A stretch of 64,000 nt of DNA, from contig NW_025941463.1 of the NCBI RefSeq assembly GCF_000764305.2, positions 419,841-483,840 on the forward strand, written 5' to 3'. This DNA is from Hyalella azteca. Its lineage: Eukaryota > Arthropoda > Malacostraca > Amphipoda > Hyalellidae. The translations under genes were made by a program, and so were the position numbers. Position 1 is the stretch's first letter. Each line of letters starts with the position of its first letter. The notes under the pieces are model-generated. The model saw only the letters and a program-made list of their open reading frames with translations. It was not told the DNA's origin and did no database searches. Positions 343-52,735 of this stretch are shown here, piece by piece.

Positions 343-477
343 TTAGCATAGGCCTTCTCCAGCAGGGCGGACCAATATTCGTTGCGCTCATCGGAGTGCA
401 TGAAGACGAGCTTGCCGTAGTACGTCGGCAGACGGTCGTCTATCACGACGTCCACCCAGCGCCCGTACTGCCAGAAC
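343..477 (-). CDS. Calpain protease-core exon (FWQYGRW...LLEKAYAK)
   Basis: The acceptor is ACGTCGCAG with the exon starting at 477, and the donor is AA|GTACGA with the exon ending at 343. The 135 bp are 1 + 44 codons + 2. The frame reads [20 protein letters not shown] and, after [24 protein letters not shown]. This is the highly conserved calpain segment just before the catalytic-His half of the protease core. It is the last exon of this gene visible in the window. Confidence 0.93.
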
Positions 478-3400: not shown

Positions 3401-6400
3401 ATCTAATATATAGGTTAAAATATATAAATATTATTATAATGTTCATAATAACAATAATTAACATCATTATTATTACTATATTGATATATTCCAGTAATAT
3501 AATATAGCACTATCATTATAACATTGATAATTAAAATCATTTTAATTACTATACTAATATACTACGCTAATATAATATATTGTTATTATTATTATTATAA
3601 TGTTGACAATAATGTTAATTAAAATTATTATTTTAATATATTATACTTACATAATATATTATTATTATAAAACATAACCAGCTCACCCAGCTCGCCCTGC
3701 TTGACGTCAAACCGCGACGCGCCGTCCACGAACAACTGCGGGTCCCCGCTGATCTCCTGGTGAACACAACGCCTGTCAACACCTGCCAACACTAGGCAAA
3801 AACAGTTGAAAACAGCTGGCAACAGCCATAGGTGGCATGTGGCAACAGCCATAGGTGGCATGTGGCAACAACCATAGGTGGCATGTGGCAACAGTCATAG
3901 GTGGCATGTGGCAACGGCCATAGGTGTCATGTGGCAACAGCCATAAGTGGCATGTGGTAACAGCCATTGGTGGCATGTGGCAACAGCCACAGGTGGCATG
4001 TGGCAAAAGTTTACGGCAAGGCAAAGAACGACTACAGAAGCAAGCTGGATATTTGGCAGAGGAGGCGAGTGCATCATCTATTGTAATTAGGAGTATCATC
4101 TAGAGGGGCAGGAGAGGAGTATCATCTAGAGAGGCAGGAGAGGCGTATCATCTAGAGGGGCAGGAGAGGAGTATCATCTAGAGAGGCAGGAGAGGAGTAT
4201 CATCTAGAGAGGCAGGAGAGGAGTATCATCTAGAGNNNNNNNNNNNNNNNNNNNNNNNNNNNNNNNNNNNNNNNNNNNNNATCTAGAGGGGCAAGAGTAT
4301 CATCTAGAGGGGCAAGAGTATCATCTAGAGGGGCAAGAGTATCATCTAGAAGGGCTAGAGTATCTAGAGGGGCAAGAGTATCATCTAGAGGGGCAAGAGT
4401 ATCATCTAGAGGGGCAAGAGTATCATCTAGAGGGGCAAGAGTATCTAGAGGGGCAAGAGTATCATCTAGAGGGGCAAGAGTATCATCTAGGGTAAATAGG
4501 AGTATCATCTAGAGGAGCAAGAGTATCATCTAGGATGACAGGAGCAGATAACAAAATCATCTAACCAAGACAGGGCATCATCTAGGGCAGTGGTTCAGAA
4601 AGTGGGCGGTAGGGGATAGGACAAGTGGGATCTTTCCCCCTGGGGGCGATGGAAAGATCTGGAGTAGCGGTGAGGTTCAAATTGCAGCATGCCAAATATC
4701 AAGAAAAAGGTGTTTGTTTCCACATGTGTCGGTGGGGGGGGCACTAGGAATTCACTGGCAAAACAAGGGGGCGCCAGCCTGCAGAAGTTTGGGAACCATT
4801 GATTCCAGGGGGATCTGGAGTATCATCTAGTGAAGCCTAAAGTATCAATAGGGAAGGCATCAGTATCGTCTAGGGACGAGTGCATCATCCAGCTAAGGCA
4901 TTGTCTTGAGAAAGCAAGTGCATCATCCATTGGAAGCAAGTGTTGTCTCTAAGTGCAGGTGCACCCTAAAGGTGCAGGTGCACCCTAGAGGTGCAGGTGC
5001 ACCCTAAAGGTGCAGGTGCACCCTAAAGGTGCAGGTGCACCCTAAAGGTGCAGGTGCACCCTAAAGGTGCAGGTGCACCCTAAAGGTGCAGGTGCACCAC
5101 TAAGATGCAATATATAATAAAACTCACCCGAAGCGCCGAGATCTCCTTTAAGCAAGAGGAAGTGACATGTGGCCGGTTATTAATTAACATTTTATCATTT
5201 TCCCAAGATCCATTTTTATATTGTCTAGAAAAAATTGAATAATATACAAATTACTTGACATATTAACATTTTCTTGAGGTCCTTTTGTATATTATCAAGA
5301 AAAAAACAGGACAATATACAAATTACAAACTATACCCGGCAAAATTACAAACTATTCAAGACATGAAAACTAGTTTAGAACTAGAGAAGAGCCAATAAAA
5401 TGTTCCCTTCTCGGGGAAGGCATGAAATTCCGTTCGTATTCATGACATGATAACAAAAATTCCCCACAAATGTTCCCCTAAAATGTTCAAAGAGTGTTAA
5501 AAGAAGTTCATTATATATTCCTCGCTGTCGGGGATAACTCCCCAAACTTTGAGTGGTAATAGCCAATGAAAAAATCCCCCGTAAAAATATGATTTACATG
5601 GGGACGCTTTCACTGGAAGGGCTTGGAGGGACTTACATGGGGACGCTTCCACTCGAAGGACTTGGGGACATACATGGGGACGCTTCCACTCGAAGGGCAT
5701 GAGGGACTTACATAGGGACGCTTCCATTGGAAGGGCTTGGGGGGACTTACATGGGGACGCTTCCACTGGAAGGGCTTGGGGGGCCTTACATGGGGACGCT
5801 TCCACTGGAAGGGCTTGGGGGGCCTTACATGGGGACGCTTCCACTCGGAGGGGCTTGGGGACTTACATGGGGACGCTTCCACTCGAAGGGCTTGGGGGGA
5901 CTCTTGCTGAAGAAGATCGAGGAGTCCTGAGCGGGGAAGGCAGGATCCTCGAACAGGACGCCGTTCTCGAGGCAGTAGTCCCGGATGCGCTCGAAATCCT
6001 GCACCTCCTCCCCACGACCATGCAGGCCGGAGCCCCGCTCCCCGAACTGTGGGGAAGAATAATTAATATGTTTTATAAATATTATCATTTTTTAAGTGTT
6101 GAAATATCAATATATTCAAATAAATATATTTTAAAATACAACCCAAGTAAAACGATATCTAGCAACCTAAAGAAGGGTTTTAGACACACCTAGCCCTATC
6201 TCTAACCCTAACCTAACGAGGTTGGCGTTTTTTATGTCCGGTGAAGTAGTTCATTTATTTTCGCGTCCGATTTTTGAGTACAAACTAATTGCAGAGTTAA
6301 TAACCGGACGCGATTTTGTCCGGTTATTGTTAAACTTATATATTTTATATATTTATATATAAATACATTTAAATATATATATTTAAATATCAATATATTT

Positions 6401-9400
6401 TAGAAATAAATAAATGAAATATAATTAAATGATAAAATAATGAGTTATAATCTTTTAAAAATGTTGAATGCAAGAATTTCTTCCCCAGGAACGTTTAGCC
6501 CCGAACTCTGTCCCAAAAACTGCTATGGGGGAAGAATAATGAATTAATTACCTACATATTATTGAAGAATCTAATTTAAACTTATATTTGAATTATAAAT
6601 AAATTATAATTGCAAATACTTCTGCCGCACGCCCATGCTGGCTTCCCTCCAAACTAAGGTGGGAGACATAATTATTAAATTTTACATAATATAATTGAAG
6701 AAATAGAAATACTCGTATAGAAAAAAATATAAGTAATGGCATTGAATTTATTAAAAATTGCCAGTGCAGAAATAGATTTTTATCTAACTTTGTTTCCCGC
6801 CAAAAACATCAATTCAAATTACATATACGTACATATTAATCGTTAAATATTAACTTAAATTAAATATAAATGCGAATAAACTGAAAAAAATGAATTGGAT
6901 CGTCAAAATAGCGGTCCGACCTTTGTTTGACATACGATGAAATATTAGTGTACTATACATTGAAAACACAGCTAAATTATATGTTATGAATCGACATGTA
7001 CGAAAGTTGATGAAAATAACGTACGTGACTTCCCTGAAATTACCTGAAGTCACGCCTGTTACGGCTGAATATTCACCATATTAACATTGAAAAGACGTAC
7101 AAATGAATAAGTTAGCTTATAATTATTTCCAGAATTATGTATTGTGTATGATGTCACCATTGTACGTAGAATACATTAATCGTGACATGAACCAAAACAT
7201 GAGGAATATTGTCGACGAATAAAAATGAAGGCGATAACGATGGCAATAATAAGGAAGATAATACGATAATTATAGACTTTATGATAAATATCTTAAATCG
7301 GAGCGACTTTATGCGTTTTTTTTATCAACAGGATAATGTTTTATTCAGGCTCTAAGTTTTTGTGACGTTATCTAACGTGTGCTTTGATCAAGACGTTGGT
7401 TAACGTTCGTTATGATGAAGACGTTAGCCAACGTTCGTTATGATCAAGACGTTAGCCAACGTTCGTTATGATGAAGACGTTATCCAACGTTCGTTATGAT
7501 CAAGACGTAAGCCAACGTTCGTTATGATCAAGACGTTAGCCAACGTTCGTTATGATCAAGACGTCAGCCAACGTTCGTTATGATCTAGACGTTAGCCAAC
7601 GTTCATTATGATCGAGACGTCACGGACTGCTTGTGTGGGCGCGATAAGGGCGCGTTATCGGCGGCCGCCGGATGCGCGCTCAGCCCAGGCGATACGCTGC
7701 AGCGTCGGCACGCGATAACAATTGATTATAAACCTAATTTACCCTAACTGCTAATTATTATCCCTAATTATGACTAATTAGTAAGGTAACCATAACTATG
7801 GTAACATGGTAGTATTCACGGTGCATTATTTCATGACAAAATAGAGGAATTAGGTAGCATGAAATAATACCATAGGTCCATAGTATTATTTTATATAAAG
7901 TAATACCATCATATTATTGTTGGTTTTAGGATTATTCAGTTTATCCCAAAAGGAAAGTGCGATTATCCCAGAAGGATACTAATGCGGTCTTCACATTGTT
8001 GGGATTGAGCAGAAACTATTGAGCCAAATAGTCTTTCTTATCCGCATTATGGACTCCTCGATCCAAAGCATTTCATCCAAAGAGCAGAATCCTGATATTG
8101 CTTCTTCCATCATCCACACAAAAGTTTTCTCGTCATCCACACACCGACTTTCAATTCTATCATCCACACACCGGTTTTTAATTTTGTCATTTACACACCG
8201 GTTTTTAATTCAAACATCCATACACCGGTTTTCAATTGTTTAATTGTTGTTTTTGTTGTTTATCCACACACCGGTTTTCAATTCAAACATCCACACACCG
8301 GTTTTCAATTCAAACATCCACACACCGGTTTTTCAATTCATTTTTCAATTCTATCATCCACACACCGGTTTTTTTAATTCTATCATTCACACACCGGTTT
8401 TTTCATCATCCACGTACCGGTTGCACGATGTGGTACCGTCCGTCCGCTCCTTGGAAAACGCACCGAAAATTTGATAAAAATTTCCGTCCATTTTTGACGT
8501 TTCTGTATCGCTGCTTGCGGGGATATTTGACAGGAGAAATCGTCATAGGTTTGGAGGCAATATCCAAAATCCGTTTTTTTCAAAGACATTGTGCAAAATA
8601 AGTGCATTGATGAAGTGCAGAAATAACGGTGATGTCCATTGCATTTTTATGGTGAAAATAACGGTAGCAGTGATGACCATTACCGTTTTAACCATTTTCA
8701 ATTGTACCTTTTTAAAAATTGTCAGCCATGACAATTTAAAAAATTGCCAAATGGTTGGCAATTTAAAAAAATTGCCAACCATTTTAGTTTCAAAAATTCA
8801 GCGCATCCAGTGAAAGTTTTTTTTATCATGTCCATGCAAATTGAAATCATCAACCATTGTCGTTAAATTTCAGATAATATACAAAAATCGGTTGAATGTT
8901 GTTGATTGAAATCGGGTCTCCAGTGAGTAATTTGACGTAGAATTTTCAAAAACTTGACTTCGGTTGGTTCACGTTGATTTTACGATAGCTTTTCGCAGGT
9001 TTGTGAAGAATTGCCTCAATTTTTTGGAGAATATTATTGTTGTTCCGAAGAAGTTCATCAGGAATTACAATATTTAAAAAATATTCGCTTCGTTTGTTAT
9101 CGCCGGTCGGAAGAGATGATTGGAGAGTGAAAGGAAAAAATAAAATTAATAATTAATAAAACTAAGAACTGATAAAGTTCGAATGATGAAAAACATTAGA
9201 CAAACAAATGTTGTTAATGATCTAGTAAATATGCTTCAAGTAAAATAAATATTTTCGATCAATAATAAATGAATTATATTTCATTAATATGAACAACATC
9301 GATTCGAATTAATTTGATCTATTAGATCCAATTATAAATAATAAACGGTTATATTTTTTAGGGTGGCGAAATAACTGCGTTTGAGTAGTCATTCATCTGG

Positions 9401-12400
9401 TAAATAAACTATTTATCGAGTCCCTTTAACATATTTACATTTAAATTTACATTAATTATTTAATGATTGAAACTTCAGATCGAAATACCAATATACAAAA
9501 ATGCGCAATACCAAATATATCACGTAAAAATAACTTTTATTTGTTGATAATTAAACAAATACATTGATCAGAGTTAGTATTTTAAGTTCAAGCAATTTAT
9601 CCTATACTGAATAATGAAAATTTAACGAATTATCGAATTATTAATCGTTAATAGTTAAAAAATAAATTGATTAATAGTTTACGCTCACTTTGATTAAATT
9701 TTCTGTAGAGTCTTGAGATTTGTATTTATTTCTCCTCACATCGTTCTTCCCCCTACCGTCATTATACGGTCGCGTATCATTGATATCATCCAGACATTCG
9801 ATCAAATCTTCGATGACGTCCCCCTTTCGAAAATTCGTGTTCGAAGAAATCGGGACAAAACCGACATAATTTCCGCCAATGTCCAAGTTGGGGAAAGGCT
9901 GAACCCCAAAACCAGTGGGCGCATGTGGGGGTTGAGCCCCGAATCCAGTGGGTGCATGTGGGGTTTGAGCCCCAAAACCAGTGGGTGCAGCTGGGGGTTG
10001 AACCCCAAAACCGGTAGGTGCGGGTGGGGGTTGAGCCCCAAAACCGGTAGGTGCAGCTGGGGGTTGAGCCCCAAAACCAGTGGGTGTAGACGGGGATTGA
10101 GCCCCAAATCCGTAGGCTGGATGAGGGGGTTGAGCCCCAAAACCGGGTTGAGCCCCAAAACCGGTGGGTGCATGTGGTGGGGGTTGAGTCATAAAACCAG
10201 TGGGCGCAAGTTGAGGTTGAATCCCAAATTCGGTGGATGCAGTTAGGGGTTGCGTGAACCCCGAAGTCAAGTTGTAGGGTGAAGTTGGGGTTGCGTTTAG
10301 GGTTAAACCCATTGAGGGATGACCAGTATTTCTTATTTGTGGGGGATTTAAATTTTCCCCGCCATAGAGGCTCCTATATTCCCCAGCTGGTACTCCCCAG
10401 CCAGCCATAATTAGGGTAAGATCTATGCAATTTACCCCAAGTTTATAATTTCAAAGCAAAATACTTCGAAGAAAATCTTTCAAATTTACCCTAACTTTAG
10501 GAAAAGAATGTTTTAAGGAAAATCTGTCAATAGACACGAGATGATTGAGAATAGAAATATTGTTTAAAAAAGTTTTAGATGATGAATGGAAAATGAATGT
10601 CAGTGAAACTGACACAGTGAAAGTTAATGTCAGTTAAAAATGTGAAAAATTTGAAAAATGAATGTAAGTGACAGCATTTAAATATTGACTAAAGGAACGA
10701 AAATTTAGGGAAGAGTCGGAAAGAACAGGAAAACATACGAAAAAGTAAATAATAAAAGATTCGGAACCAAGAAAAATGTTCTGAAAAAATTGTACTAACG
10801 GGATACCTGGAATTATATTATTTTTTCATTTCCTACTTTATATATATAGAAATTAATTCTATACATAGAAAAACGTTCTGTTTTTAGAAATTCTGTATAT
10901 AAATAAAGGAATTCTTTCTATAGATAAAAATGTTTTCCAAATCTAGACATTATTCCTACATAGACAAATTCTCTCTATATCCAGAAATACTTTCTATATA
11001 TAGAAATTCTTTCTGTAAATAGAAATTCCTTTACAGATAGAAATTCTTTCTGTTAATAGAAATTCTTCCTATATATATAGAAATCTTTCTTTACACCGAC
11101 GATTAAAGAAAAACATTGATGATCTGCTTCAATCAATCTATCATCCCTGCACTGATAGTGGCACTCAATACAATGATAGCGTTAAATGTTTTCTTTCTAA
11201 AATCCGACAATAATTCGAATGTCACAGTAAATAATGAATTACAAATATTAAATTTCAGAGATGCACGTCCTAGCCACACCACAGAAACTAGTCAACTAAC
11301 CGTCTCTGCGCACCATGCCTTATCTCTGCCGTTATCTTCTCAGGATGATAAGAGATATACAATAATGGGTTCTTATTATAGATCACATATATCCTAATGT
11401 TATATGAGAGGTATCGTAGATTTGGTAACTTATACATTTGAATTATATGAATTATGTATAAACAAATAGATTAGCTAGTCATCCTGAATCCCGTCACCCC
11501 GAATCCCGTCATCCCGAATCCCGTCACCCCGAATCCCGTCATCCCGAATCCCGTCACCCCGAATCCCGTCATCCCGAAGCCAGTCACCCCGAATCCCGTC
11601 ATCCCAAATCCCGTCACCCCGAATCCCGAATTTTATTTCACATTATATCATATTATATATTCTCCATCCTCACCATATAATATAGAACTCCATCCTCGGC
11701 ATATGGCATCGCTGTATGACGTAGGCGCAAGGGGTAACAAATTAAAAAAAACAGGCGCAGATTTTGGCAAAATAGGCGCAAGTACTGGACGAAATAGGCG
11801 CAGTTATGCACGAAATAGGCACAGTATTGGATAGAATAGGGACTTTTTTCGTCCCAATTGTCCAGGAATTGCTATGCCCAATTACATGACCTCATAATAA
11901 AAACGTTGATTGGTTGGCATAATCTCTCAGTACAGCGTACACGAGCCACTAGTCACTGTTTATTTTTTATTAAATATCTAATTTAAATACGGGCGTTCTG
12001 TCCATGGAAATAAATTATTGCTGCTGGTGATCTAGGGTAACTCTGTTTGGATTTAGGGTATTTTCTTCGTTAAAATTTAGAGGATATACATACTTATTAT
12101 TTGCATGTTCTAAGAATTCAGATGAAACCACGAGGCACTCGACGCATGAGTTTTCAGCGGCACAGGTTAGAACGTTAGAGTAAATTCGCAAAATAAACGA
12201 TTTCCAAAATTCCAGATCCGAAAAATAAGCGCAAGTGCTTTCTAAAGATGCTTTACTTCCAAACAAACACAGGCTTTTCGTTATTATCAGCAAAACAAAC
12301 TTGAACTCTTTAAAATTTACCGTGAATAACATTGATGCTCTTGAAGTTATCGTAAAAAGACGGACTTTCCATTAACTCTTAGTAAAACAAACAGAGGCTC

Positions 12401-18400: not shown

Positions 18401-21400
18401 TGCCCTCATAATTCACGAAAAGTTCAGGAATCGGCAACAGGCCATGGGCCTATTTCTTCAACGCCGACACTTCTATTCTATTCTATAACTATTCTACTTT
18501 ATAAACGCATTTAAAAAAATGGAGCATTTGTCCATATATTGACACACTTCTTCAAACACAACACGAGCAACGAGTGGCTGATTTTCCTTCTCATAGTGAG
18601 TCAAGATGACCCACGATAGGCAAAAAGTGCATCGATATTTTAACAAAGTTCCACACATTTTATTAAGTATAGAAATTAACTCATAATATAGAGCAAAGAT
18701 CGGATGCTGTGAACAGCAGCTGACTTAGAAGCTCTATTTATGCTATTCCTACGAGGATGGCAAGCAACGGCAATGTTATTCCTACGAGGATGGCAAGCAC
18801 ATAATGTCCACTTGGAAGTGCAGTGTCGCTGTAATGTTATTCCTACCAGAATTGTATGATAATTGCACGGAATTGGGCCAACATGAATAATTTACACCCA
18901 GCACGTCACTCACCCTACACGTCACTCACCCTACACGTCACTCACCTACACGTCACTCACCCTACACGTCACTCACCCTACACGTCACCCTACACGTCAC
19001 TCTACACGTCACTCACCCTATACTTCCTCTTGAAGGAGAAGCACGCCACTTCGTCGCCGTTGTCGTCGTAGAGGCGCACGTCGCAGGAGCCTCTATCGTC
19101 CTGCTGGTGCTCCATCACGTCTTCCACGCCAGGGTCGTCATCTTCGTCATCGTCTTCGTCGTCGCGGTCTTGGGTGCAACGATTCATTGCATTCACGCGC
19201 ACGAAAAAAAACGCTTATCGTTTCCCGCGGTTACGCAAAAATTATTGTTAAAATGTTACCGTTTATTACGTAAGGATCTCCGTTAATATGAAACTTCGCT
19301 TATAAGAAATTCCGTATATGAGATACACGCGCACGGGAAAAAGGCTTATCGTTTTCCGCGATTATACAAAAATTATTTCAATTAAAAATGCTATTGTTGA
19401 TATGAAACCCTCCGCGTCGTGTACAGAAACTCCGTGCTTGAGGAATTAAATTTCTTCATAGAATATTCAAATAAAACGGTTGCCTTCATAATAACGATGG
19501 ATAATGTTTAAAAGTTACCGTTTATTCCGTAAGAAAATCCGCTTTCAAGAAACTCCGCTTTTAAGATACGCATCCCTTTTATAAGAATTCCGTTTATAAG
19601 AATTCGCCGCATACAACGAACATGTGAATAGTTGTAAAAGGACGGCGCTTGAATAAAACCGCATTTACATTTGAAGTAGAGGAGCTAGTTTCAACTAGTA
19701 CTTTTGAAATCGTACATGCGATCCTACAAAAAGTAACCGACGTAATGTTTAAAAAAAAATTTGCGCAGCGGATCCGAAAATGCAGAATTTTGGAACGTCA
19801 CATGAGGTATTGTATATCATCATGAATAGCTTTAACGGCTGATATTATTTATATTGTACAACGACAATCTAATATGATTCGTGTGGTATGGTGCCGGAAA
19901 GCAGTTTATTTTGAGTTTTAGTTGACAAAAACAAATTTCTACGCAATTGCTCAAAATTTTTTTTTATAAAAATGAAGCCCTCGACTCATCGTATAATCTC
20001 ATGATTGGATACTAGAGATAATTTCTCGTGACAGAATATAAAATGCTACGGATTTCTAATTCAAATACCAACTATACTGAAAAAAATAATAAATTCCCGC
20101 TGAATTGGAAAGTTGTTACACATGCAGGATTATATGTCTAATAAATAACTGATTGTCTATAGCTAATTAACGAACGATAATTGATAATTGTGATTTTCGA
20201 ATCCCCATATAACCCATTTTTCATCCACCATTTATCGACCAAAATTAATATATCTTATTTATTGTCCAGTAATTTGTATCCCCCCATTTATCGTCCCACA
20301 TTTATTGTCCCCCATCTGTTGTACCCCATTTATCATCCACTAGTAATCGATAAAAATTTAGCATCTCTCATTTATCGCCCCAATTTGGCGTCCTCCATTA
20401 AACGTCTCCCATCTGTCATCCCCCATTTGCCATCCCTCATTTGCCACCCCCATTTATCATTCCCATTTATCATCCTCCATTTCTCATCCCCCTTTTGTCA
20501 CCCCCGTTTCTCATCCCCATTTAAGCGAGAATTTATTTACCGAGGCGTGTGGGCCCGTTCATGAGCAGCCCAGGGTCGGGCTGCCGCACGACGGGGTCGG
20601 AGGGGTCCGCCTCCCCGGTCTCCGGGGGGTCCGGATCGTCCGGGGTGTCAAAGCAGTCAACTTTTTCCAGCATCGCACGAAACGGAACCGTCAATTTTAT
20701 TTACTGTTTCATAATTTCACTAAATTGGTTGCGGAAATTTTCAAACTTGACGTGTATTTGGCATTTAGATTTGTAAAATAAATCCATAGACTAGGCCAGA
20801 AATTCTTTTCTTGTACAAAGTCTCCTTTGACCGGGGCAAGAAATATCAAAACTGTTAAGAAATTAAAATTGGAAAGTTCCTGTAAATCAACAGAAATTTT
20901 TTTGAAAAGGCAGCTCGAATTCACATCAATGTTAAAAAATTATGTGAACAAAAAAATAAATAAACGAACTATTCAGTCTAAACAGACTATCCAGGATATA
21001 ATAATACGATTGTATCAACACCCCAGCCTTCATTACAGAAATAATAAATTTAATAACGCGGTTTCAGTTTCATTCAAACGCTAAATTTGTCAAATCATCC
21101 TACAGCAAATTGACATCACATGTAACCTCAATATACATCCAAGAAATCAAGTTGTTGGATATCTGACGTTAAATCGACGTTGAATAACGTTTTTTTCGTT
21201 AAATCGAGGTTAATTAAACCTATTTTCAACGTCATTGGAAAGTGGGTATCCAGAGTACACAGGTAGGCTAATTCTACATCACAGCACGAGTGAAAATTGC
21301 ACTTCATGCATCATAAACCGCAGTAAAATCCCGGTATTTCACCACAATGTAAAACTGGCACGCAATATATCATTCAAAATGATACATCATTGGACTTCGA

Positions 21401-24400
21401 TGATAAACTAATACTAATCTCTAATTTGAAAGAAAACTATCATCCAGGAGTGATATGAAAAATTATATCAACAGGTTTGGAAATGACAGATGTAGAAAAA
21501 AGGGTTTAGGAATAACGGCTGAACGTAGAAAGTTTTGAAGCAACGATCGGAAGGAAAATAAGCAACTTTTGACCCGGAAATATTGCCAAGGTTTGCAATC
21601 GATCTTTGGCAGATATAAAAATCGAGATAATGGCTTTAGTGCGGCTCCAAAAAGTCACCTTTCCGCGAAGATAAGGTCAAACGAAAAAAGTTCCATAAAA
21701 TAACGATTGGCTTTACAAGTTCGACTGAGAAACTTCGAACAGAAGAACAAACGAGACTGGCCACCGATACCACGCCCATAATGCTGGGTCCGATACTGGC
21801 CACCGATACCACGACCATAACGCTGAGCCCGAGACTGGCCACCGATACTACGCCCATAATGCTGAGCCTGAGACTGGCCACCGATACCACGCCCATAATG
21901 CTGAACCCAAGACTGGCCACCGATACCACGACCATAACGCTGAGCCCGAGACTGGCCACCGATACTACGCCCATAATGCTGAGCCTGAGACTGGCCACCG
22001 ATACCACGCCCATAATGCTGAACCCAAGACTGGCCACCGATACCGCGCCCATAACGCTGAGCCTGACACTGGCCACCGATACCGCGCCCATAATGCTGAG
22101 CCTGAGACTGGCCACCGATACCACGCCCATAATGCTGAGCCTGAGACTGGCCACCGATACCACGCCCATAATGCTGGGTCCGAGACTGGCCACCGATACC
22201 ACGCCCATAATGCTGAGCCTGATTCTGGCCACCGATACCACGCCCATAATGCTGAGCCTGAGACTGGCCACCGATACCGCGCCCATAATGTTGAGCTCGA
22301 CACTGGCCACCGATACCGCGACTATGATTCTGGACAGGGCTAGACTCAGGACATGACGTGAGAACAAAAGAAGGCCGATAATGTAAAAAAAATATACAAG
22401 AAAAACATAATATACAAGAATATCAACGATCGTTTGTATGGCACACAGCCGCCACGCTTCCGTCAACCTTGAGCAACCGCTCCGAACTTTCCGTGTTTTA
22501 GATCCTTGCTCTACTGAAGGATTTCTTAATACGGTCCGTATTGCGCGCATTTAAATTTTAATAAATAATTATACGGTGAGATTTTTGGTCTGTAAATTTG
22601 GTCACCCAGAGAATTTGTTCTTATGAACATCTTATAAAAAATGAAGTGTTCAAGTTAAGAAAATTTTCATGCAAGATATTCTCATTTTCATTAAATATTT
22701 ATAATTATCTTAAGAGGGTTAATTTTTAATAAGTAGGGTTAATTTCCTCCCATTAACCCCACTGAACCTGATAGATTCTTCGCCTGCTGACCGTAAATAG
22801 TGTTACCGTGCCCTCAGGTACGAATAGCATAGGCAATGGTTAATGTATCCGTAGAAATATTAAATCTTCGTCTTTTAACTGTAAGTATCATTACAAAGCC
22901 TTTAGGAATGAATAGCATCAACCGAAGTTAATAGAACATTTTTCTGCTGATGTTAACCCCGTTGCCATGATTACAGGTAAGAATAGCATAGGCGACGGGT
23001 TACTGCATCTGTAGACAAAGTAATAACATTTGTTTGCTGATAATAACTCTTTCTCAGACCATCAGGTACGAATAGCATAGGTGACGGTTAATGCATCCGA
23101 AGACAAAGTGTTAAGGTTGCATAATAACTTTCCTAGCCATGAGCGGTGCAGTCAACCATCTTTTTGTGCTCCGGTAACCCATCCACGTATCGACCTCACG
23201 TCATTACTCATGTTGCAAGAACAGCTGTATATTATGCGCGGCTTATGGCCGGCCACCAGATGGCATCTGAACGTAAGGATTAGGGTTAACTCGGCTATAA
23301 ATTTTAATACGGAAGAGACTGGCCAGTGGTCGGGTTTCACATCTTTTCGAAATCGTTTTCGAAATCATGCTCTATAATCTTGATCACTACAATTTTTTCG
23401 TAATTTTACCCTATGTATTTCGATAAATAAAAATTATTCGCAATTGTTCCCTGCGGATTTAAATCGATAAATATTTTCGAAATTGTGCCAATGGATCTTG
23501 ATCGATCAAAATTTTAATGCAAATAAAAGCCGCTCGGGGAACTTCACAATTACGACAATAGCAAACATATGATAGAAAACCTCTTCAACAGACGCGCTAA
23601 GAAGCAATTGGAAAGCTAGCTTAACATTGCCTAATTACTCGGTAGAAACCAAAGTATGATCTATATTAATTTAAAAACGAATGAAACCTAATTACGTTCA
23701 CTATTAATGAAAGAATTACGTGTCAAGCGACCAATGAAAGTTTGTAAATCATAGCCCACGTTTAGCACTCAACCAATGAGAAGCTAGGCTAAAATTTTGA
23801 TCACAAAATATGGCAATTTGCCCTATTCTAGTAGGTATATCATAGCTAAGTCATTTTAGTCATTTAGGCAAAATTAAAGCTAGGTTAACACCAACATGAC
23901 AAGCTGTGATACTAGCAAATACTGAAAAATTAGACATAAACCAAAGCTAAAAATTTTTATAGGTTGAGATACCGGTAAATAATATATATTTGAACACGTT
24001 TCGGGAACGTTATCGATTAGTTTATTCAATGAAAGAATTGACGCGTCTTTAAAACTATTTTGCAAAGCTAAAATACGTAAAAAATTAAAAAAGTAATTTT
24101 GCGCCGAATATTTGCTAAGCCAGAGAAGCATATTATAATATTTTGCGACAGTCCACGCAGATATGGCGTCTTTGGTCAGCATGTTTAAATTGTTCAGTTG
24201 TTCAGGATTCAAATTTAGGTTTTTATGAGCACCGTCAACATGTATACGATCATGATACACTATACGGTCACCATACACTATACGGTCACCATACACTATA
24301 CGATCTCTATATATAGTGTCACCAAAGCGCGCCACGTTACACAATCGAGTGACTTTATTTTCGTTGTCGCGGCCTTAACTATACGACGTTACTGTAACGT

Positions 24401-27400
24401 TCCGTTACGACATTCGTACGACATTAAATATATTACGAGTATCTGTATATAAATAACGCAATATATTAATACTCGAAAAAATTCAGTGTACACCGTTGAA
24501 ATTCTCGCTACTATGCCAGTGCGACACTGACAGAAATACCGACAAAGAAACTAATAGAAACACTGACCGGTAAAGGGTCACACAGACACTGACATATACT
24601 AACAGGAACACTAACAGGGACACTGACAGGAACACTGACAGAGACATTGACAGGGACACTGACAGGAATACCGTCAGAGACACTGAATAACACCTCAGGT
24701 CTCGCAACACTGGCAGCAGCGACGACGCTTCACCGTCCGCACGTCAGTCAATACTGACGTGTAGGCCACGGCCAGCCTGCGGTGCGCGGAGGTCGTTTGG
24801 TATCCTGCGACGTGTGACGTGCATACGACGTGTGACGTACACACGACGTGTGACGTGCATACGACGTGTGACGTACACACGACGTGTGACGTGCATACGA
24901 CGTGTGACGTGCATACGACGTGTGACGTGCATACGACGTGCGTGCATACGACACGAACGACTCGCTAAACGAAGTGTGACATGCATCACACATTCAAGTC
25001 AATTGTATTCAATTTCAGACTCGCTCCATCATCAATATCAAATATCACTCAGTAAGATGTATATGTCATATTGTCTTAATATTGACACACTTTCTACATG
25101 TAGCAATGATTCATCCTTTTGCTGCTCAAAGCTACTCCAGGATTGCCCACATTTGGGCAAAAAGTACATCGCAATGACGTCACCAGTACAACGCATCTCC
25201 CACCCAACCCCCTGGGAACGTGAGTATCCTGGTACTCACGTTCAGGGGGCCTTGGCGGGGTTGATGACGTCACAAGTCCTTCACCCACACCCCCTACCTC
25301 CCACCCTCCGCGGTACTCACGTTCCAGACGGCCTTGGCAGGGTTGATGACGTCACAAGTGCTCCGCCCACACCCCTACCCAGACCCCCCCGCGGTACTCA
25401 CGTTCCACACGGCCTTGGCGGGGTTGGTGACGTCACCGATGCTCCTTCCACCACACCCTCAACCCCCCACCCCCTGCGGTACTCACGTTCCACACGGCCT
25501 TGGCGGGGTTGGTGACGTCACCGATGCTCCTTCCACCACACCCTCAACCCCCCACCCCCCACGGTACTCACGTTCCAGACGGCCTTGGCGGGGTTGATGA
25601 CGTCACCGGTGCCGCTCCTTCCGCCCCTCATGATGCGGTTGCGCAGGTGGTACGCGCCCCTGTTCAGTAGCGACGAGATGAGGGAACCTGTGGGGGATGA
25701 GGGTGCGTGGAGATAAGTGAGGGTACGACAAGGCAGGTAGTACGTACACCTACAGAGGAAAAAAATAAACGATGGCGTTCGAAGTGCAGTTGGTAGGAGA
25801 ACAAGATAAGAGAAAAGAAGGTTTAGGTTGAGATACGTGAGGGCAACGAAGGAAACTAACGCAGGAGAATAAAATTAATAAATTTATACGTCACATACAC
25901 ATCAGGTGTACGAAGAAACGTTGTAGGACATCAGGTGTACAGAGAAACGTTGCAGGACATCAGGTGTACAGAGAAACGTTGCAGGACATCAGGTGTACAG
26001 AGAAACGTTGCTGGACATCAGGTGTACAGAGAAACGTTGCAGGACACTTTCAAACACTAACTATATAATACATTATTCATATTGATTCATTATTCCGAAT
26101 ATTTAGTTATTTTTAAGTTGATCTCAATCGTTAGCTTGACATCATGATTAAATGCAGGAAATTTTAATGGTTAGTTAAATTCATTCAACATCAATGAAAA
26201 ATCGTTGCCGTATATAATTAGCATTAAATTTTATTCCACACTAATTATTACTGAAAAAACGTGGTCAGTAAGAAAATGATTACAAATAAAAATTAATAAT
26301 AGTTAATATATTGATGTATACCAACAGGAAATATAGAGAAGAGCAGCTGAATAAATAATAAATACGGAAATTGAAAAGAAAGTCTAAAACATGACAAGAG
26401 GTAAATAAAGGAATAGAGGGAATGTATGAATAGAGCGGATGAATGAATAGAGCGGATGAAGGAATAGAGGGAATGTATGAATAGAGTTGATGAATGAATA
26501 GAGTGGATGAATGAATAGAGTTGATGTATGAAAAATTATATGCACAAGTGCACTAGTTGAAGCATGAGACACGTTCGATGAATATGAATGATATGATGTA
26601 TGGAGGATTTTGAAGGAGCGTAAAGCGTCTGTCGTTTGGTCATTATTTTCCTTCACTGGTAACTTCCATTCATTCATTAATTAATGAATGAAATAAAAAC
26701 GTTTCAAACGTAACGCACGAAATTCTTTTGTAAATTTATAAATAAATTCACTTAAGAAATTTATTCCAGTAATCTTGTAACGTTTCTTTTTCGTGCGGTG
26801 ATTTAAATTTTTTTTCAACCAATTTACATGTTTTTTTACACGCAATTTTTTCCATGTTCCCATACCATCGGGTTCTTCTTCCAGGGGCTCCGAGCCCCCA
26901 CTTCTCCCCACACTTGCACGTAGGTTCCCCACCAAACCCCCCAGGGTTAATCCCCCACCTGCCCCCGGAAGGATCCTCCTCCTGCTGGGGTCGACGGCCA
27001 TCTTGGAGAGGTGCTCGTCCACCGTCCCGTCGTCCTGGGTGGTGTGGGCCTGACCCCTGCGGGGGGAGGGGGGAGGGGTTACAGGGGTTAGAGTGGGAGG
27101 GGGATTAGAGAGGAAGATTTAAGATCTAGATCTAATAGTAAATTTGAATGAATAAATAAATAAATTTCAACAATATTTTTATCTAATTCATTTTACCATA
27201 GCAGTCAGTAATTTTTGTATTGATTTTTTTTGTTTAAACACATTATCTAATTTTGTTACAACATTCGGACAAAATGCTTATTTTAGTGACACATTTTATT
27301 GTAATTTCATGATTAGTAATGCTTATTCTAATATATTTAATGATGATGACGAATGATAAGAATGAAAAAAATTGAAAAAAAATTGATAACAATAATAATA

Positions 27401-30400
27401 ATAATAATAATAATGTTGGCAATAAGAACAATGAAGGCACGAATGATAATAATGATAATAACAACAACAATAAGAAGCATCACCTTAATTAGTAATGCTT
27501 ATTCTAATATATATAATGATGATGACAAATGATAACAATGAAAACAAAATTTATAACAACAATAACAGTCATCACCTGGTGACAGCGCCGATGATGTTGC
27601 TGGCAATGGAGCCCCCAGGCTGGTGGCCGCCCCCGCCCCCCCTGACACACAATATATATAATGTAATATATACCACGATATATTATTGTATATATCGATA
27701 CCACGTTATATACAATATAAATTGTACATCATTATTGCAAGGAACTTAGAATTATTCAAAATAAGAATTGTATTTAATGTATATGGATAAGTATTTGTTT
27801 ATAATAATAACAAAGGTGATACATGAATATACTGCATGTGAAGATTTTTAAAAATATTTATGCATTTAAATTTATTATATGTATTTATATATTAAATATA
27901 AAAAATATTTCTATATTTTTATTTATATAGGTAGACCAATCACATTCAATAATGAATGTGTTATAATATAGACGCTGTATCAAGTATAAAATCAATTTAT
28001 ATCAATTTTATATTATAGACACCTATATACATTTAAATAAATGCATTTTATTGATATAAAAACACATATTTTTTATTAATATATATATTTTTCATATATT
28101 TATATATGTATAGTTTATACATTTATGTAACTAAATATATAATTTATATCCTTAATATATTTAAAATATTTTATAATATTTTAAAAATATATTATATAAC
28201 TAGGTCGATTTTTAGAACGTGGTAGGGTTGACTTGGTTGACATATTAGAACGTGGTAGGGTTGACTTGGTTGACATATTAGAACGTGGTAGGGTTGACTT
28301 GGTTGACATATCGGAACGTAGTAGGGTTGACTTGGTTGACATATCAGAACGTGGTAGGGTTGACTTGGTTGACATATCAGAACGTGGTAGGGTTGACTTG
28401 GTTGACATATCAGAACGTGGTAGGGTTGACTTGGTTGAAATATCAGAACGTGGCAGGGTTGACTTGGTTGACATATCAGAACGTGGTTGGGTTGACTTGG
28501 TTGACATATCAGAACGTGGTTGGGTTGACTCACCCCATAAAGTTCCCGATGAGGTTACTTGCGATGCCACCAAGCACGTCCTGGTTGCCACCACCAGCTC
28601 CCTGTCCACCGCCGCCACTGCAACCATGGTAGTGTTATGGTAGTGACAGGAATGTTTTATTGTATGGCTTTTGTATGGTGTTGTAAGTTGTGTTGTATTG
28701 TATTTTGATGGAGGTCGTTGTATAAATAATGTTATAATTGAAATATATGCAGTTGATATACCCGAGTTATTTATGGTACGTCTTGTAAATTTATTTCTGG
28801 GCTAAATGTAAAATGTATAACTAAGAAAATATGCAAACATGGGTGCATATACACCCTAATAAAATTCAGATGCGTGTGCGAGCCTGCATCAGGGCCGCCT
28901 AGGACTCGGGGAGCACGATAAGTCAGCTTCTCTACGTCAGCTTCGGCTCAGGGTTCGAAAAGCAGCCTCTGGGCAGCTCCCTATTTCGGTATGACTCGGC
29001 CGCGGCCTACTCTTCTCATACTCTCAGGCGACTATAAAGTCGGACAGGAAATTCTGACCAGAAGCTAATTTCGATCTGACGGCCAGACCCAGAATAACTT
29101 TGCGCCGAGTGTAGCGACTATTCGGCCGAAGCATGGGAGGTCCTCGAATTTTTTAGGACTAATATAGAATATTTTCACATTTTGTATACAAATTATACAA
29201 ATATGGGGTATTTTTAATTTCGTCTAGCAAATATACAAATATAGGGTATTTTCTCACATTTTGTATACAAAATATACAAATATTGGGTCTTTCTTCACAT
29301 TTTGTTTACAAGGATCCTCGTAAATCGTAAATACACATGAAATACACAATAAGTATCAAAAAATTATTCTTCACCTGAGCATCTTGCCGATGTACTGGGA
29401 GGCCATACCCGCCACCAGCTGGTTGCTGAAACCGCCACCGCCACCTGCACCGCCGCTGCCGTGCCCGCCTCTAAAATTACATGCAGTGGCGTGCAGGTAG
29501 CAAAATTAAAATTTAAAATATAATCATGAAAAGAGTGTGGCTTCACGAATAAAAATATGAATATGAGTTGTATTTTATTAAAAAATAAAAATAATTTAAA
29601 AAAAGAGATTTCAGGTATAAAAAATGCCTACCTCTAATTAAACAAGCATGGCGCGTACGTGCAGTGGCGTGCAAGTAGCAAAATTAAAATTTAACACATA
29701 ATAAAAAAAGAGTATGGTTTCATATATAAAAATATAAGTATGAGTTGCATTACATAAAAAATAATATTTAATACAAAAATGTGATTTCAAACATAAAACT
29801 CAATGTGTTTTTGGTGTGGTCTATATATTTTATAAAAAATATAAAAGCAACAGTAAAAAAAATATAAAGTATTCCTGGAATAAGGTTATAATATACATAA
29901 TAGAGGAAATAAACATTAATATAAAGCATATATATTCATTGAAGGTTCATTCATCAATCAACTGAAAAAATATTATGTAAAAAATAATTTTATGATTAAT
30001 ACTTTTTTCATGGGACTGATATTGATAATGATTTAAAATTGAAAAATATTCTTTAATTCAATAGAATTTCAAATTTTATAATGTATGATTTTATATAATC
30101 TTACATAGATGTATTTCATCAGATAATGGCAGAAAAATAATCAAAATTTAATATTAATGATTTATAGCCAGTGAAATAATCAATCTATCATTTAATGATA
30201 GCCTGTGGAGAGAAATTGGTTTAATTAAAAAAATAACTGACGGAAATTGGAAAAAAACGGAAAAAAATAAAAACATGCAGATTGAATAACGAAGAAAATT
30301 TAACGGAAAAATGTTTCGAGGTTTATTAATATTAAATATCTATTTGAAGTTCATCCTTAAAAGGAAATATAAGAAATATTTTCTGCGAACTCCAGTTCAA

Positions 30401-33400: not shown

Positions 33401-36400
33401 TCTGTGTATAATGACGGTAAAAGAGACGTCATTCTATTACGTCAGCAACAGGGTTTTAGTTCAATCTTGCATCTATATACACGTCAGCACACGTCAGCAT
33501 CACCCAGCACACGTCAGCACCACCCAGCACACGTCAGCATCACCCAGCACACGTCAGCACATTTGGAAACACTTGGAGTTCTCTGAAACACTTTGGTGTC
33601 TCGCTCTGGGCACGATCGCTCAGAGAGGCCTTGAAACACTTGAGTGTCTCAAGACAGCGGTCTAATTTGTCTCAGTGCACCTGAGGATGTCGCTGACGAT
33701 GCTGGTGACGATGCTGGAGTTGCGGTTGGGGTCCGCGGTGGACAGGATCTGCTGGTGCGTGTCCTGCCTGCGCTCCCATGAAATAAAAATGCGATGACAT
33801 ACACGATTAATGCGATAAATATAATGCCATGGATAAACAATACCATATATGCTATATAAAACATAATATAATGAAAATGTAATACAATAAATGCTTTGAA
33901 AAATATAATAACAAGAAAATGTAATGCAATAAATGCTATGCAAAATAAAATAACTTGAAAATGTAACGTATGCATAAGTTATATACATATGATACAATGC
34001 ACAAGACGATAATTACCATGACGAGAAGATACTACGTATATTCCTTAGTAATACATATATGACAGAAGATATATAAATATTATTTGAACATTGATACAGC
34101 AAACGAATCAATTTAATTGAACGCACCTCACGACCACCGCACCTCACGACCACCGCACCTCACGACCACCGCACCTCACGACCACCGCACCTCACGACCA
34201 CCGCACCTCATAATCTCACGGATGACCGCTGAAGTTACGGAGGCGATGACGTCATCGTTGACGCTGGCCCCGCCCCCTTGTGGTTTCCCGCCGCTGACAC
34301 ACAAAAACGAAATACGATCATCGTAAGTTATAAAATGGCTAAATACTATTTATATTAATTATATCATTGGATTTTAAACAACATAATTCATATGTATGTT
34401 TCAGTTACATTAAAAACCTAATCACATATCACATCAGGCATTTAACGTTGAAATAACGTTTATTTAGCGTTTTCTCTTCGAAATAAACGTGAAATAAACG
34501 TTTTTTCTATAGATCAGCTCGTAATTGACGTCGTTTCAACATCATTTGCTGAGATGGGTTAAAATATCAGCATCACCATCACCATCATCATTATCATCAT
34601 CATCATCACCCACCTGAGGTTACGAAGCACCTGCCCCACGATGCCCCCCACCGCCCCCTCGTCCAGCCCCGTGCGCTGCTGTACTCCCCCACCCCCACCA
34701 CTGCTCGCAACCCCCACCCCCCCAGAGGGTTAAATAGCGTAGTGGGTGCACATTTTTTGGGGTGGGGTAATTGTGGTTGGGGTATAGGAAGGAGGGGGTG
34801 GTATACATATTTTTTGGAGGGGAGGTCCTATAGTGGTTGTTTGCGGAGGGGGTTGGTACATATATGAAAATTGTGATGTATCATAGAGATAGTTATATAT
34901 AATAGTTAAACATGCAATAGATAAGTTGCATATTGTAAAATACAAAGATCTAAACTTTTTTTTCTGAAATTTAAACATTACAGATTTCAGCGCATAAAAT
35001 AACAAAAAAATCAATCGAAAACTCTAAGGGCCCAGATTCTACACTCAGTATAATGAATGCGTAATATTGCCCAAATAAGTGACAATTTCTTACCCACAGT
35101 ATGAACAGACAGCGGACGTAGCACTGATACGCTTTTTTGCCGTATTAGTATCATAAATCTTTCAAAGTAGAAATTTTCGAACATCTTAAACTTGAAAATG
35201 ATTCAAGTTATACGAATGAAATTTACAGTGTAATTCAGTACTGCAGATATTTACAGACCATTTAAAGTTAAATCGACATGTAAATTTAAAAGTTGTTTCG
35301 GTTCACAGAGTGGGAACAACTAAACAAGAGCTGCATATAACGCAAAAAATATATATACTTGCGTTACATGTAGATATACAAATACTGCATATAACACAAA
35401 AATATATAGACGCGTTATATGCCAAAAATACAAACACTGCATTTGACAAAAAATATATAGCTGCGTCATATGCAAAATACAAACTCTGCATATAACACAT
35501 TAAATATATAGCTGCGTTATATGACAAAAATACAAGGGCTGCATATAACACAAAAAATATATAGATGCGTTATATACCAAAAATACAAACGCTGCATATA
35601 TCGCATATACATATGTATTGCATCAGGAAAACAATCAGCAGCTAACAATCTATAGCGACGTGCACAATCCACACGCAATCACCTGAAGAGACTACCAATC
35701 ATGGCTGACGCTGCCTGGCTCAGCATGGTTGATTGGCCGTGCTGTCCTCCGCCGCTATGTTGGGTAAAAGTGATCGACTATGTAGGGTAAAAGTGGTCGA
35801 CTGTGTAGGGTAAAAGTGGTCTACTATGTAGGGTAAAAGTGGTCTACTATGTAGGGTAAAAGTGGTCGACTATGTAGGGTAAAAGTGGTCGACTATGTAG
35901 GGTAAAAGCGGTCGATTATGTAGGGTAAAAGTGGTCGCCTATGTAGGGTAATAGTGATCGACTATGTAGGGTAAAAATGGTTGACTATGTAGGGTAAAAG
36001 TGGTCGACAGTGTATTGTAAAAAGTGCTCGACTATGTAGGGTAAAAGTGGTCGACTATGTAGGGTAAAAGTGGTCGACTATGTAGGGTAAAAGTGGTCGA
36101 CTATGTAGGGTAAAAGTGGTCGACTATGTAGGGTAAAAGTGGTGGACTATGTAGGTAAAAGTGGTCGACTATGTAACGTAAAAGTGGTCGACTATGTAGG
36201 GTAAAAGTGGTCGACTATGTAGGGTAAAAGTGAACGATTATGTAGGGTAAAGTGGTAGACTATGTAGGGTAAAGTGGTCGACTATGTAGGGTAAAAGCGG
36301 TCAACTATGAAGGATAAAAGTGGTCAACTATGTAGGGTAAAATATGGTCGACTATGTAGGGTAAAAGTGGTCGACTATGTAGGGTAAAATTGTTGACTAT

Positions 36401-39400
36401 GTAGGGTAAAAGCGGTCGACTATGTACGTAGGGTAAAAGTAGGTGGATAGCTATGTTGTAAGTACACACATCAGGACGCATGTGGCGACATAGATTATGT
36501 TGTATGACACAATATACAAGGAAACTTGTCACGAGGGCATTTATATAATACGGATCAATTTATTACATAGGAAATATAATACCTACAATTGCTGCCAGCG
36601 CCTCAGCTTTCATCAAAAAATTAGCACGAAAAATTCAAATAAACAATAAAAGTTATCAGAAAACGTTAACAGTCCGACTAAACTATCATCCAATTACTTA
36701 TTAAGTAATATTAATAATTAATTAATATCATTATGAAACTATCATTAAATAAAACAATCACGCTGAAACGGTAATTTATTAATAATCAAATAATTGTGGC
36801 ACATCCTCATACATATTTTATCGGGCAATCTATTGTAATATAAAAAATATATATCTATTGTAATACAAAAGGACATTGTAATATAAGACAGCACGTTTAC
36901 AATGCGCAAAACGTGTATTTGGTGAGAGAAATAACGATACATTTAATATAAATTTTCACTCACAAACGACATGATAGAAGGAAAAGTAAAATCATATAAA
37001 AACACTAATATTTTTCAGTGCACACCCCTGTTTTGCACACTAAAATAACAGGGACCAACACAAAAAAGCAATAAAGAAATATCTATAACGAAGTGATGAA
37101 TAATCCGTTTTACGCAGTGGGTATTCATTGAAATTAACAACGCATCAACACATAATACAATCGAAAATATCTTTTTTGCAAACTAAATCATACATAAAAA
37201 ATTCCTAGCACATAAAATATTTAAGCATAACAAACGTTTGAGCGCACATAAAATGTTTGAAAACAAAAATTTTCCACGTTACAGGAAAAAATCAAGGAAC
37301 AGGACGCCGCTAAAATTAATCAATTTTTCAATGAGGAAAATCAAATGATTTAAAAAATATAACTCAGTACTCACTGCAGTGACTGACAGAGAGCGCATTT
37401 TCTCTTCGACGAAAATGTGAAGTCACGGACGGATAGACGGACAAACAGTCGGACAGACAGACAGACAAACGGACAGACAGACGGACGGACAGACAGACGG
37501 ACGGACATGGCGAGCACAATAGCGCTTTTTTCTAAAATAATAAAATGCGCTAAAGAATGAGAGCAAGGAGAAATTCATCGCGAATGAAACAGCACGGAGG
37601 GAAAAAATTATTGAACGCTATTCAAAATTTACACAAACTTACTGAAGATTAAAGTAAAGAAATTGAAGACAAATAGAATAATGTACAGAAAAAAACAAGC
37701 AGTAAAGCGCATGCAAGAAACAAGCGAAATATACCAAATTATATAGTAATCTATACATTTTTTGATAATACCGACGTTATAAATATAATGTTTAATTTAG
37801 TTGTAATGACCCAACGTTTTTCATTCGGCATCGCAACTATAAGTTTAATGTGAAATTCAAATTCCGCATAGAAATTCGAACTGAAATTTATGAAAAATTT
37901 ATAAAAAAATATCTTCCAATTTTTCAATCTGAGTGAATAATTAAATTTTTGTTCACAGAATTACATGGGGCCAGAGCAGGCCTATGCCAGGCCCCAGTGG
38001 GGACATGGCAGGCTCAGAAGAGGCGGGGCTCAAGATGAAGTCCTCTAAAAATCATAGCTAGAAATGGGGCTTAAAATGGATTAGATTTAACCAAAATATT
38101 ATGCACTGTAAATACCCTAGTTCTAAATAACCTTGATAGCCTATATAACTTAAGTTCTGTAGACAGGCCTACCCAAACATGCTGCCGATGCCCGAGATGA
38201 GGCCGCTCATGTCCCCACCGCCGCCGTGTTGCTGCTGCCCAGGCTGCTGCTGCCCGCCTCTGTCATACGTACAATAGTTAAATATCAATACAATAGTGTA
38301 ATATACGCGTAAAATATTTCATTTATACATTCAACATATTGCAATGCTTGAATAAAATAATATATGGATACCATACGACTAACATGAAGCACTCTACCAG
38401 AAATCTACAGGGCAAAGTAGTTCCTTTGTAAAGTAGTTACCTAAGACACTTATCATAGTCTTAGCACAAACCTTTCATGCTCTCAGGAAACACTTGTCAT
38501 CCTACCTTGAAATACTATTCATACTCATAGGACACACTTGTCATAATTTCAAGCGACTATGAAGTTGATAAGAAGAATCTTACCAGAAGCTAATGGCGAT
38601 CGGGTGGCTAAGCAAACCCAGATTAACTCTTAACCGAGTGTAGCGACTCCTAGCTTGACAGAAGCCTAGGCGGCACCCAAATTTTGTCAAGACTTTTCAT
38701 AGATACCTTAATATACCTGAGACTTGCATACCATTACACGCGATCTTATCATTACTCACGCTCGTAGCATTACGCACTCTGATCCATTATATATATATAT
38801 ATACTCACCCGCTTAGCATGCCGCCTATAACATTAGAAGCGAAGCCCAGCATGTCGTGTCCACCGCCTTGTCCGCCATGTTGGTCTTGGCCGCCATATTG
38901 GCCTTGGCCTCCGTATTGGCCTTGACCACCGTATTGGCCTTGGCCGCCATATTGGTCTTGGCCACCGTAATATCCTTGACCTCCGTACTGGCCTTGGCCG
39001 CCATATTGGCCTTGACCTCCGTATTGATCGTACTGACTGTAGGACAGCATTAAAGGACAATTGAGATGTAGTTGATTTTGTAAATAACATAGTAGATTGA
39101 AAGCATTTTATTTAAATGGAGCGAAAGATATAACAGCAACATTTTGGTTCAAGCAACAAATCCAAATCTGATAAAAGTTCATAAATTATTTAAAACGAAT
39201 TTAAAGACCAAATCAATAACAATTGCTTTGATTGTTAATTTAAAAATTTAAATATTTTTCTCAGTTAAATAATTTTACAAGTCGAAAGTTCTACAATTCA
39301 CCAAGCTTTCACTAATTTGTTTATTATTATCAAATTTTTAGTTTTTTAGTAAATTTAAGTGACACATTGCAAATTTTCAGAAATATTACTCGATTTATTC

Positions 39401-52389: not shown

Positions 52390-52735
52390 CGAACACTTGT
52401 ATTAACGGAGAACACAGAGCTGTTCTTGGTGGTTGTTCTCTGTAACTGTTCTATTAAAGGAGAACACAGAACTGTTCTTGGGGGTTGTTCTCTGTAACTG
52501 TTCACTGACACTGGTCACTGAAACTGTTCACTGAAACGGTTCACTGAAACTGTTCACTGAAACTGTTCACTGAAACTGTTAACTGAAACTGTTCACTGAA
52601 ACTGTTCACTGAAACTGTTCCTGTCTCTTATACACATCTAGATGTGTATAAGAGACAGCTGAAACTGTTCACTGAAACTGTTCACTGAAACTGTTCACTG
52701 AAACTGTTCACTGAAACTGTTCACTGAGAACAGTC
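52390..52735. repeat. 13-bp satellite (AACTGTTCACTGA) plus a 58-bp pair
   Basis: About 17 copies of AACTGTTCACTGA from 52495. A pair of GGAGAACACAGA.CTGTTCT units precedes it. Mate-pair adapter interrupts it at 52621. Confidence 0.94.
52621..52658. other. Residual Nextera mate-pair junction adapter
   Basis: CTGTCTCTTATACACATCT followed by its reverse complement, a full 38-bp junction inside the 13-bp satellite. It marks an artificial join, so the array length is unreliable. Confidence 0.97.

Follow-up and report, generated by a model that had tools for sequence, protein, structure and literature searches.

Tandem arrays crowd the 5' ends of introns in a predicted calpain gene of Hyalella azteca

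The 64,000-nucleotide stretch of contig NW_025941463.1 analyzed here (positions 419,841 to 483,840 of the forward strand, assembly GCF_000764305.2 of the amphipod Hyalella azteca), called the window below, carries on its minus strand the 5' part of a predicted calpain gene that continues past the window edge. Tandem arrays in this gene clearly crowd the donor side of introns beyond what chance would give: 10 of 16 donors have an array within 35 nucleotides (nt), and four arrays run on from an exon and hold its donor splice site inside the repeating unit. The explanation we favor, with modest confidence, is that tandem duplication has recurred locally at the start of introns, either right at the 5' end or slightly within it, and would be tolerated at donors because the donor next to the exon stays intact.

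Arrays at the exon borders of the calpain gene

Arrays were detected with Tandem Repeats Finder (TRF), whose 150 rows were merged into 87 arrays that together occupy 24% of the window. In the initial annotation, five calpain splice junctions (donors at 5867, 19017, 25572, and 34207, and the acceptor at 35754) were each said to be the founding copy of an array carrying the splice site in every unit, and a sixth array was said to start at intron base +3 after exon E8. This observation is confirmed, with small corrections (Table 1). The four donor arrays are contiguous with their exons, overlap the final 36, 4, 41, and 4 exon bases, respectively, and contain the donor within the unit, and the acceptor lies at the edge of the fifth array. 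However, the splice site is not carried by every unit. It is retained in eight of eight units at 5867 (the exon copy counted), five of five at 25572, and six of six at 34207, but in only six of eight at 19017, where the two units without a donor are truncated, and 26 of the 29 acceptor-side units end in AG. The acceptor array does not span its junction in the sense of combining exon sequence and the AG in one unit, given that the unit of 35755-36426 is purely intronic. The sixth array is present beside the E8 donor, but it starts one base farther into the intron than was stated.

Table 1. Arrays and exons of the calpain gene; positions are those of the window, and array limits at the six named junctions are from TRF
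Feature	Position	Strand	Description
Donor array 1 (E13)	5594-5902	-	unit of 39 nt, about 33 exonic followed by GTAAGT; GT in all 8 units, exon copy included; 7 extra donors
Donor array 2 (E12)	18895-19020	-	16-nt unit TAGG|GTGAGTGACGTG, 4 exon plus 12 intron nt; GTGAGT in 6/8
Donor array 3 (E10)	25231-25612	-	85-nt unit of at least 41 exon nt plus intron; GTGAGT in 5/5
Inverted copy of donor stretch, distal end of array 3	25199-25260	.	28-nt arms, 75% complementary, 6 nt apart
Donor array 4 (E5)	34122-34210	-	16-nt unit TGAG|GTGCGGTGGTCG, about 4 exon plus 12 intron nt; 5.6 copies, 100% matches; donor in 6/6
Acceptor array (E3)	35755-36426	-	23-nt unit TCGACCACTTTTACCCTACATAG, wholly intronic, abuts exon; 29 units, 26 AG-ended
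E8 array	28214-28530	-	begins at intron base +4; units without donor GT
GAT microsatellite after E4	34566-34608	-	starts beyond first 5 intron bases
Array after E11	20282-20523	-	17 nt into intron
Array after microexon	4953-5103	-	28 nt past microexon donor
AT-rich array after E14	3429-3668	-	18 nt into intron
E1	38809-39036	-	frame, phase
E2	38173-38259	-	frame, phase
E3, Gly-rich	35683-35754	-	acceptor directly before base 35754; frame, phase
E4	34614-34700	-	frame, phase
E5, Gly-rich, N-terminal	34207-34293	-	donor follows base 34207; frame and phase fit adjoining exons
E6	33681-33767	-	frame, phase
E7	29375-29470	-	frame, phase
E8, Gly-rich, donor GTGAGT	28534-28617	-	60% identity to P0001 across 30 amino acids
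E9	26959-27056	-	homologue alignment
E10, ends INPAKAVWN	25572-25687	-	donor follows base 25572; homology to P0001, P0002
E11, alternative first exon	20541-20673	-	frame, phase
E12, alternative N-terminal, ends FSFKRKYR	19017-19168	-	donor follows base 19017; phase fits E11 and E13
E13, starts FGERGSG	5867-6046	-	donor directly after base 5867; 70-75% identity to P0001, P0002, P0011, P0023
Microexon EISALR, 18 nt	5132-5149	-	counterparts in Penaeus and Oratosquilla calpains
E14	3687-3756	-	homologue alignment
E15	1959-1991	-	matches DNYAGxFHFR stretch of homologues; start in damaged assembly
E16	about 343-477	-	homologue alignment

The idea that the exon copy is the founder fares differently from array to array. 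At 5867 and 25572, sequence comparison shows on solid grounds that the exon copy is the founder, because the units hold coding sequence that is conserved. The exon copy of the E13 array is conserved across other arthropods, and some of its seven intronic copies have insertions or deletions (indels) and one has a stop; the exon copy at 25572 is likewise coding sequence conserved in other arthropods. At 19017 and 34207, the same claim is reasonable but weak, because the exon contributes no more than about 4 bases to the unit. Percent matches reported by TRF are 100 for the array at 34122, 88 for that at 5594, and 83-86 for those at 18895 and 25231, and this spread suggests that the junction arrays differ in age.

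A short blastn comparison (expectation value <= 0.05) of all 87 arrays against the 17 exons, each with 20 nt of flank, gave matches to the adjoining exon for the six named arrays, the microsatellite after E4, and a coding array within E1. No exon-derived arrays were found elsewhere in this comparison, in which five further arrays matched exons over just 11-15 nt.

The palindromic inverted donor copy at the distal end of array 3 possibly arose by a template switch. Inverted repeats of at least 10 nt are absent from five of the six named array regions, array 3 being the exception, and a shared palindrome or template-switch signature was rejected on this basis. As to array birth driven by guanine plus cytosine (GC) content, the mean of 41% for the 50 minisatellites with usable flanks does not differ decisively from the 37% of the flanks (p = 0.09). 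G-quadruplexes have been reported to be enriched close to splice junctions (PMC9065059), and a strikingly G-rich sense strand is found in the array at 25231 alone. No part of the window matched Rfam at gathering scores.

Donor-side polarity and its possible causes

The 17 exons provide 33 junctions, because E11 has no acceptor, and dropping the E16 donor near the window end leaves 32. Two null models were applied. In the first, the 61 arrays of positions 1-40000 were rotated 20000 times, with arrays reaching at least 100 nt into an exon excluded. In the second, arrays were re-placed within their own introns 20000 times with overlaps trimmed, a procedure that is biased toward small p-values where arrays overlap exons. 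The p-values of both take no account of the gene having been singled out as striking.

The 10 donors with an array within 35 nt compare with 2.80 expected by rotation (p = 0.0011) and with 1.69 expected under the within-intron null, which reached the observed count in none of its 20000 placements. For acceptors, the corresponding counts are 1 of 16 against 2.79 by rotation and 1 of 15 against 1.62 within introns. The initial suggestion of a preference for exon-intron borders is thus supported on the donor side, as an excess of arrays, but not for acceptors, which are at the level of chance. The excess at donors is also seen with the 36 stronger minisatellites alone (8 against 1.93 expected by rotation within 35 nt, p = 0.0025), and it is stable at TRF score cut-offs of 30, 50, 100, and 150. 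It is present both in the seven introns or segments that follow donor exons with homology support (5 against 0.76 expected) and in the remaining nine (5 against 0.91). Furthermore, arrays come closer to the donor end than to the acceptor end in 12 of the 14 introns compared (Wilcoxon p = 0.021); the E10-E11 stretch and a 15th intron, which is free of arrays, are excluded.

The initial annotation had also offered the view that such duplications are tolerated because any of several identical splice sites can be used. The reading frame contradicts this view. None of the 21 downstream unit donors of the four exons would leave the frame open, given that 19 shift it and the two that keep it run into a stop (one weak truncated site at E12 and chance sites are omitted from this count). 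Similarly, none of the 29 upstream AGs in the E3 array would give an open frame, because each brings in a stop, either within the extra sequence or within E3 itself. At the arrayed junctions, the exon-proximal site is therefore the sole one predicted to give an open frame, and for the arrays to do no harm, either this site must be the one chosen or transcripts from wrong choices must be lost to decay.

These observations fit the explanation that we prefer. Arrays cover so much of the window that they must arise readily here, and one lies even within coding exon E1. In this very repeat-rich region, short-range tandem duplication would have given birth to minisatellites repeatedly and over a span of time. 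Whenever a first duplication included an exon end and its donor, both would be copied in each later unit. The exon would retain its own last bases and donor while the copies became part of the intron, where use of the donor nearest the exon would hide them. Duplication at an acceptor would instead place extra AGs, stops, and frame shifts ahead of the exon, and might be retained less often. The difference between an intact exon end at donors and intervening AGs and stops at acceptors would explain why junction-spanning arrays sit at donors. All three components of this account are inferred: that the arrays were born by duplication, that the donor next to the exon is the one used, and that acceptor-side arrays are purged.

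Several findings weigh against this explanation. Tolerance alone predicts arrays throughout introns rather than an excess at their start, and the first 100 nt of introns are also crowded with arrays that hold no exon sequence, a pattern that neither duplication nor tolerance explains and that leaves room for a directional cause. Acceptors with an array within 100 nt are near the chance level (3 of 15 against 4.1 expected), and purging at acceptors is inferred only. That duplications at acceptors are strictly prohibited also seems doubtful, because the human CBS 844ins68 allele, in which 68 base pairs (bp) spanning an intron-exon junction are duplicated, is tolerated through use of the distal site (PMC2630376). 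Nor are donor-side arrays always silent, in that longer arrays in human ABCA7 accompany skipping of exon 19 (PMC5954066). The sample is a single gene picked for its striking look, and the number of junctions covered by arrays, at four, is almost exactly the 3.96 expected by rotation.

This last count is also what might be expected if the whole pattern were pure chance, given that a quarter of the sequence consists of tandem arrays and that a striking gene was picked. When each array is reduced to a single founder unit, 1.49 junction contacts are expected, and the probability of at least four (0.065 with all arrays) likewise gives chance some room. The probability of at least five, a count that includes the abutting E3 acceptor, is 0.018, and for the 35 stronger minisatellites the expectation is 1.09, with probabilities of 0.025 for at least four contacts and 0.0053 for at least five. 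The donor distances, however, are improbable under both null models (p <= 0.0011 within 35 nt) and in two separate subsets of exons, and chance therefore seems a rather unlikely account. An assembly artefact is a far less credible one, even though the assembly is damaged in four places that each lie in or beside an array. Letters of the Nextera adapter (transposon end) are found at 2017-2035, 2075-2112, and 52621-52658, a single N at 2041, and runs of N at 4236-4280 and 42568-43423. The six named arrays are free of N and of exact adapter copies, their units vary by substitutions and indels (the array at 34122, with its 100% matches, excepted), and the flanking exons are in frame on both sides. 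Array copy numbers must nevertheless be read with care.

A more serious, if tentative, alternative is that a directional process makes or keeps arrays at the 5' ends of introns throughout the genome, for example through breaks that are linked to transcription and fall close to the donor, or through slippage seeded by the donor motif, which is itself a short repeat (GTGAGTGA). It is conceivable, though doubtful, that introns in this lineage lengthen from their 5' ends across the genome, with a donor- or transcription-linked process seeding arrays within 100 nt after exons and routinely copying exon ends and donors. Acceptors are not enriched, and both the GAT microsatellite after E4 and a TA run after E1, which is too short to enter the TRF list, extend from donor letters, as such a process would predict. 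The excess at donors also survives removal of the six named arrays, with 5 against 1.30 expected within 35 nt (p = 0.0058) and 7 against 3.43 within 100 nt (p = 0.027), but it is not significant within 5 nt (1 against 0.23, p = 0.21) or 150 nt (8 against 4.89, p = 0.061). Arrays free of exon sequence begin 17 nt (E11), 18 nt (E14), 28 nt (microexon), 31 nt (E1), 63 nt (E7), and 82 nt (E3) from their donors. Arrays lying 17-120 nt downstream carry no donor letters, which weighs against this reading, and all support comes from one gene. It is very unlikely that the arrays persist because they are useful, with repeated donors binding the U1 small nuclear ribonucleoprotein, strengthening the exon, or shielding long AT-rich introns from premature polyadenylation. 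Among the 36 stronger minisatellites of positions 1-40000, a donor-like site (score of at least 7) recurs in half or more of the units of the four donor arrays and of one at 8133-8405 but of no others, and all of these sites are on the sense strand. At scores of 8 and 9, the array at 19017 alone remains. Moreover, copies derived from a donor keep it for a time without selection, and the E8 array has none.

Precedents in other genes

The initial annotation knew of no described system of this kind. Precedents exist, however, in a human ABCA7 variable-number tandem repeat (VNTR), a human CBS VNTR, a minisatellite in an interferon-induced transcript, and a survey of human segmental duplications. 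The VNTR in ABCA7 intron 18 begins at the canonical donor GT of exon 18 and has a 25-bp unit, and retention of one unit through a second donor leads to a frameshift and a stop (PMC5954066). Like the calpain arrays, it lies directly after an exon, repeats the donor, and leaves no open frame when a second donor is used, as is predicted for all 21 downstream donors here. It differs in standing alone in its gene and in having a unit that opens with the GT and holds no exon bases, and it is known to be polymorphic, to alter splicing, and to be linked to disease. The 31-bp CBS VNTR, from its name c.1444_1467+7, spans 24 exon and 7 intron bases at a donor (PMC2630376). Its unit crosses the exon end as do those at 5867 and 25572, whereas it is a lone array of 16-21 copies.

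A 1995 paper deals, by its title, with an interferon-induced transcript in which a minisatellite supplies multiple splice donors (cited in PMC3618361 and PMC2915984). Multiple donor sites are, by that title, what this minisatellite shares with the calpain arrays. The transcript is presumably that of human 6-16 (IFI6), and the minisatellite reportedly differs in having a 12-bp unit and several donors that are used in the mRNA. In human segmental duplications, minisatellite repeats with units of 30 bp on average have changed gene structure at exon-intron boundaries, with 27 intron modifications (PMC2812944). These differ from the calpain case in concerning recent paralogues, and no donor or acceptor polarity was found in the parts of that paper covered. 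In the potato RdRp gene, an intron was gained through tandem duplication inside the gene (PMC4974935). Duplication alters introns there as here, but it made a new intron, whereas in the calpain gene existing introns have grown.

Thus, single junction arrays are of a known kind, and their crowding in one gene is unusual. In the literature searched, mostly outside subscription journals and in the accessible parts of the texts, no report was found of several junction arrays within the same gene, nor of tandem repeats being enriched on the donor side. If the pattern were true of the whole genome, donor-side polarity would constitute a directional source of intron growth, the identical donors in tandem would serve as a natural experiment in which the choice of copy could be read from RNA, and gene predictors would face many equal donors per exon. 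Should the pattern be limited to the calpain gene, it would be an oddity of a genome rich in repeats.

Gene model, assembly, and other features of the window

The window is eukaryotic in character with a GC content of 36%, and its minus-strand gene is, to judge from the predicted protein, an arthropod calpain of the CalpA/B type. The spliced protein matches Peptidase_C2 (PF00648) of Pfam in two stretches (expectation value 1.5e-40) and calpains in the PDB (4e-44). Among the best 120 of 3318 matches with an expectation value <= 0.001 (7986 candidates scored), the best-scoring named proteins are arthropod calpains, and insect and crustacean calpains score alike over the catalytic part. The calpain exon with the catalytic Cys is missing near 2.0 kilobases (kb). 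A tblastn search of the window found no match to the exon encoding GDCWLLAA, and its expected site coincides with adapter debris in the assembly. The adapter letters at 2.0 kb flank a piece that resembles the array at 4089-4235.

The 17 exons were placed by reading frame, splice consensus, and phase, with comparison to homologues. Direct alignment to homologues is available for E8, E9, E10, E13, E14, and E16, and the placement of E1-E7, E11, and E12 is based on frame and phase alone; comparison with calpain homologues gave no support for E12. The frame is free of stops when E1-E10 are joined to E13 and E14, and also when E11 and E12 are joined to the same two exons. E11 and E12 thus appear to encode an acidic alternative calpain N-terminus, apparently by way of an internal first exon, that is phase-compatible with E13. 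The conserved 18-nt microexon is probably optional, and its counterparts at that place are EILALK in Penaeus (P0002) and EIMAIK in Oratosquilla (P0023), a resemblance that makes a malacostracan calpain probable. The coding array in E1 (38865-39026) is in frame, with an 18-nt unit and QYGGQG repeats.

The run of 856 N at 42568-43423 accounts for long open frames there on both strands. A 39-nt array at 21752-22317 is open in several frames, and its 304-amino-acid minus-strand frame, the sole one scanned, has no Pfam match. On the plus strand, a C2H2 zinc-finger coding array is found at 62121-63284.

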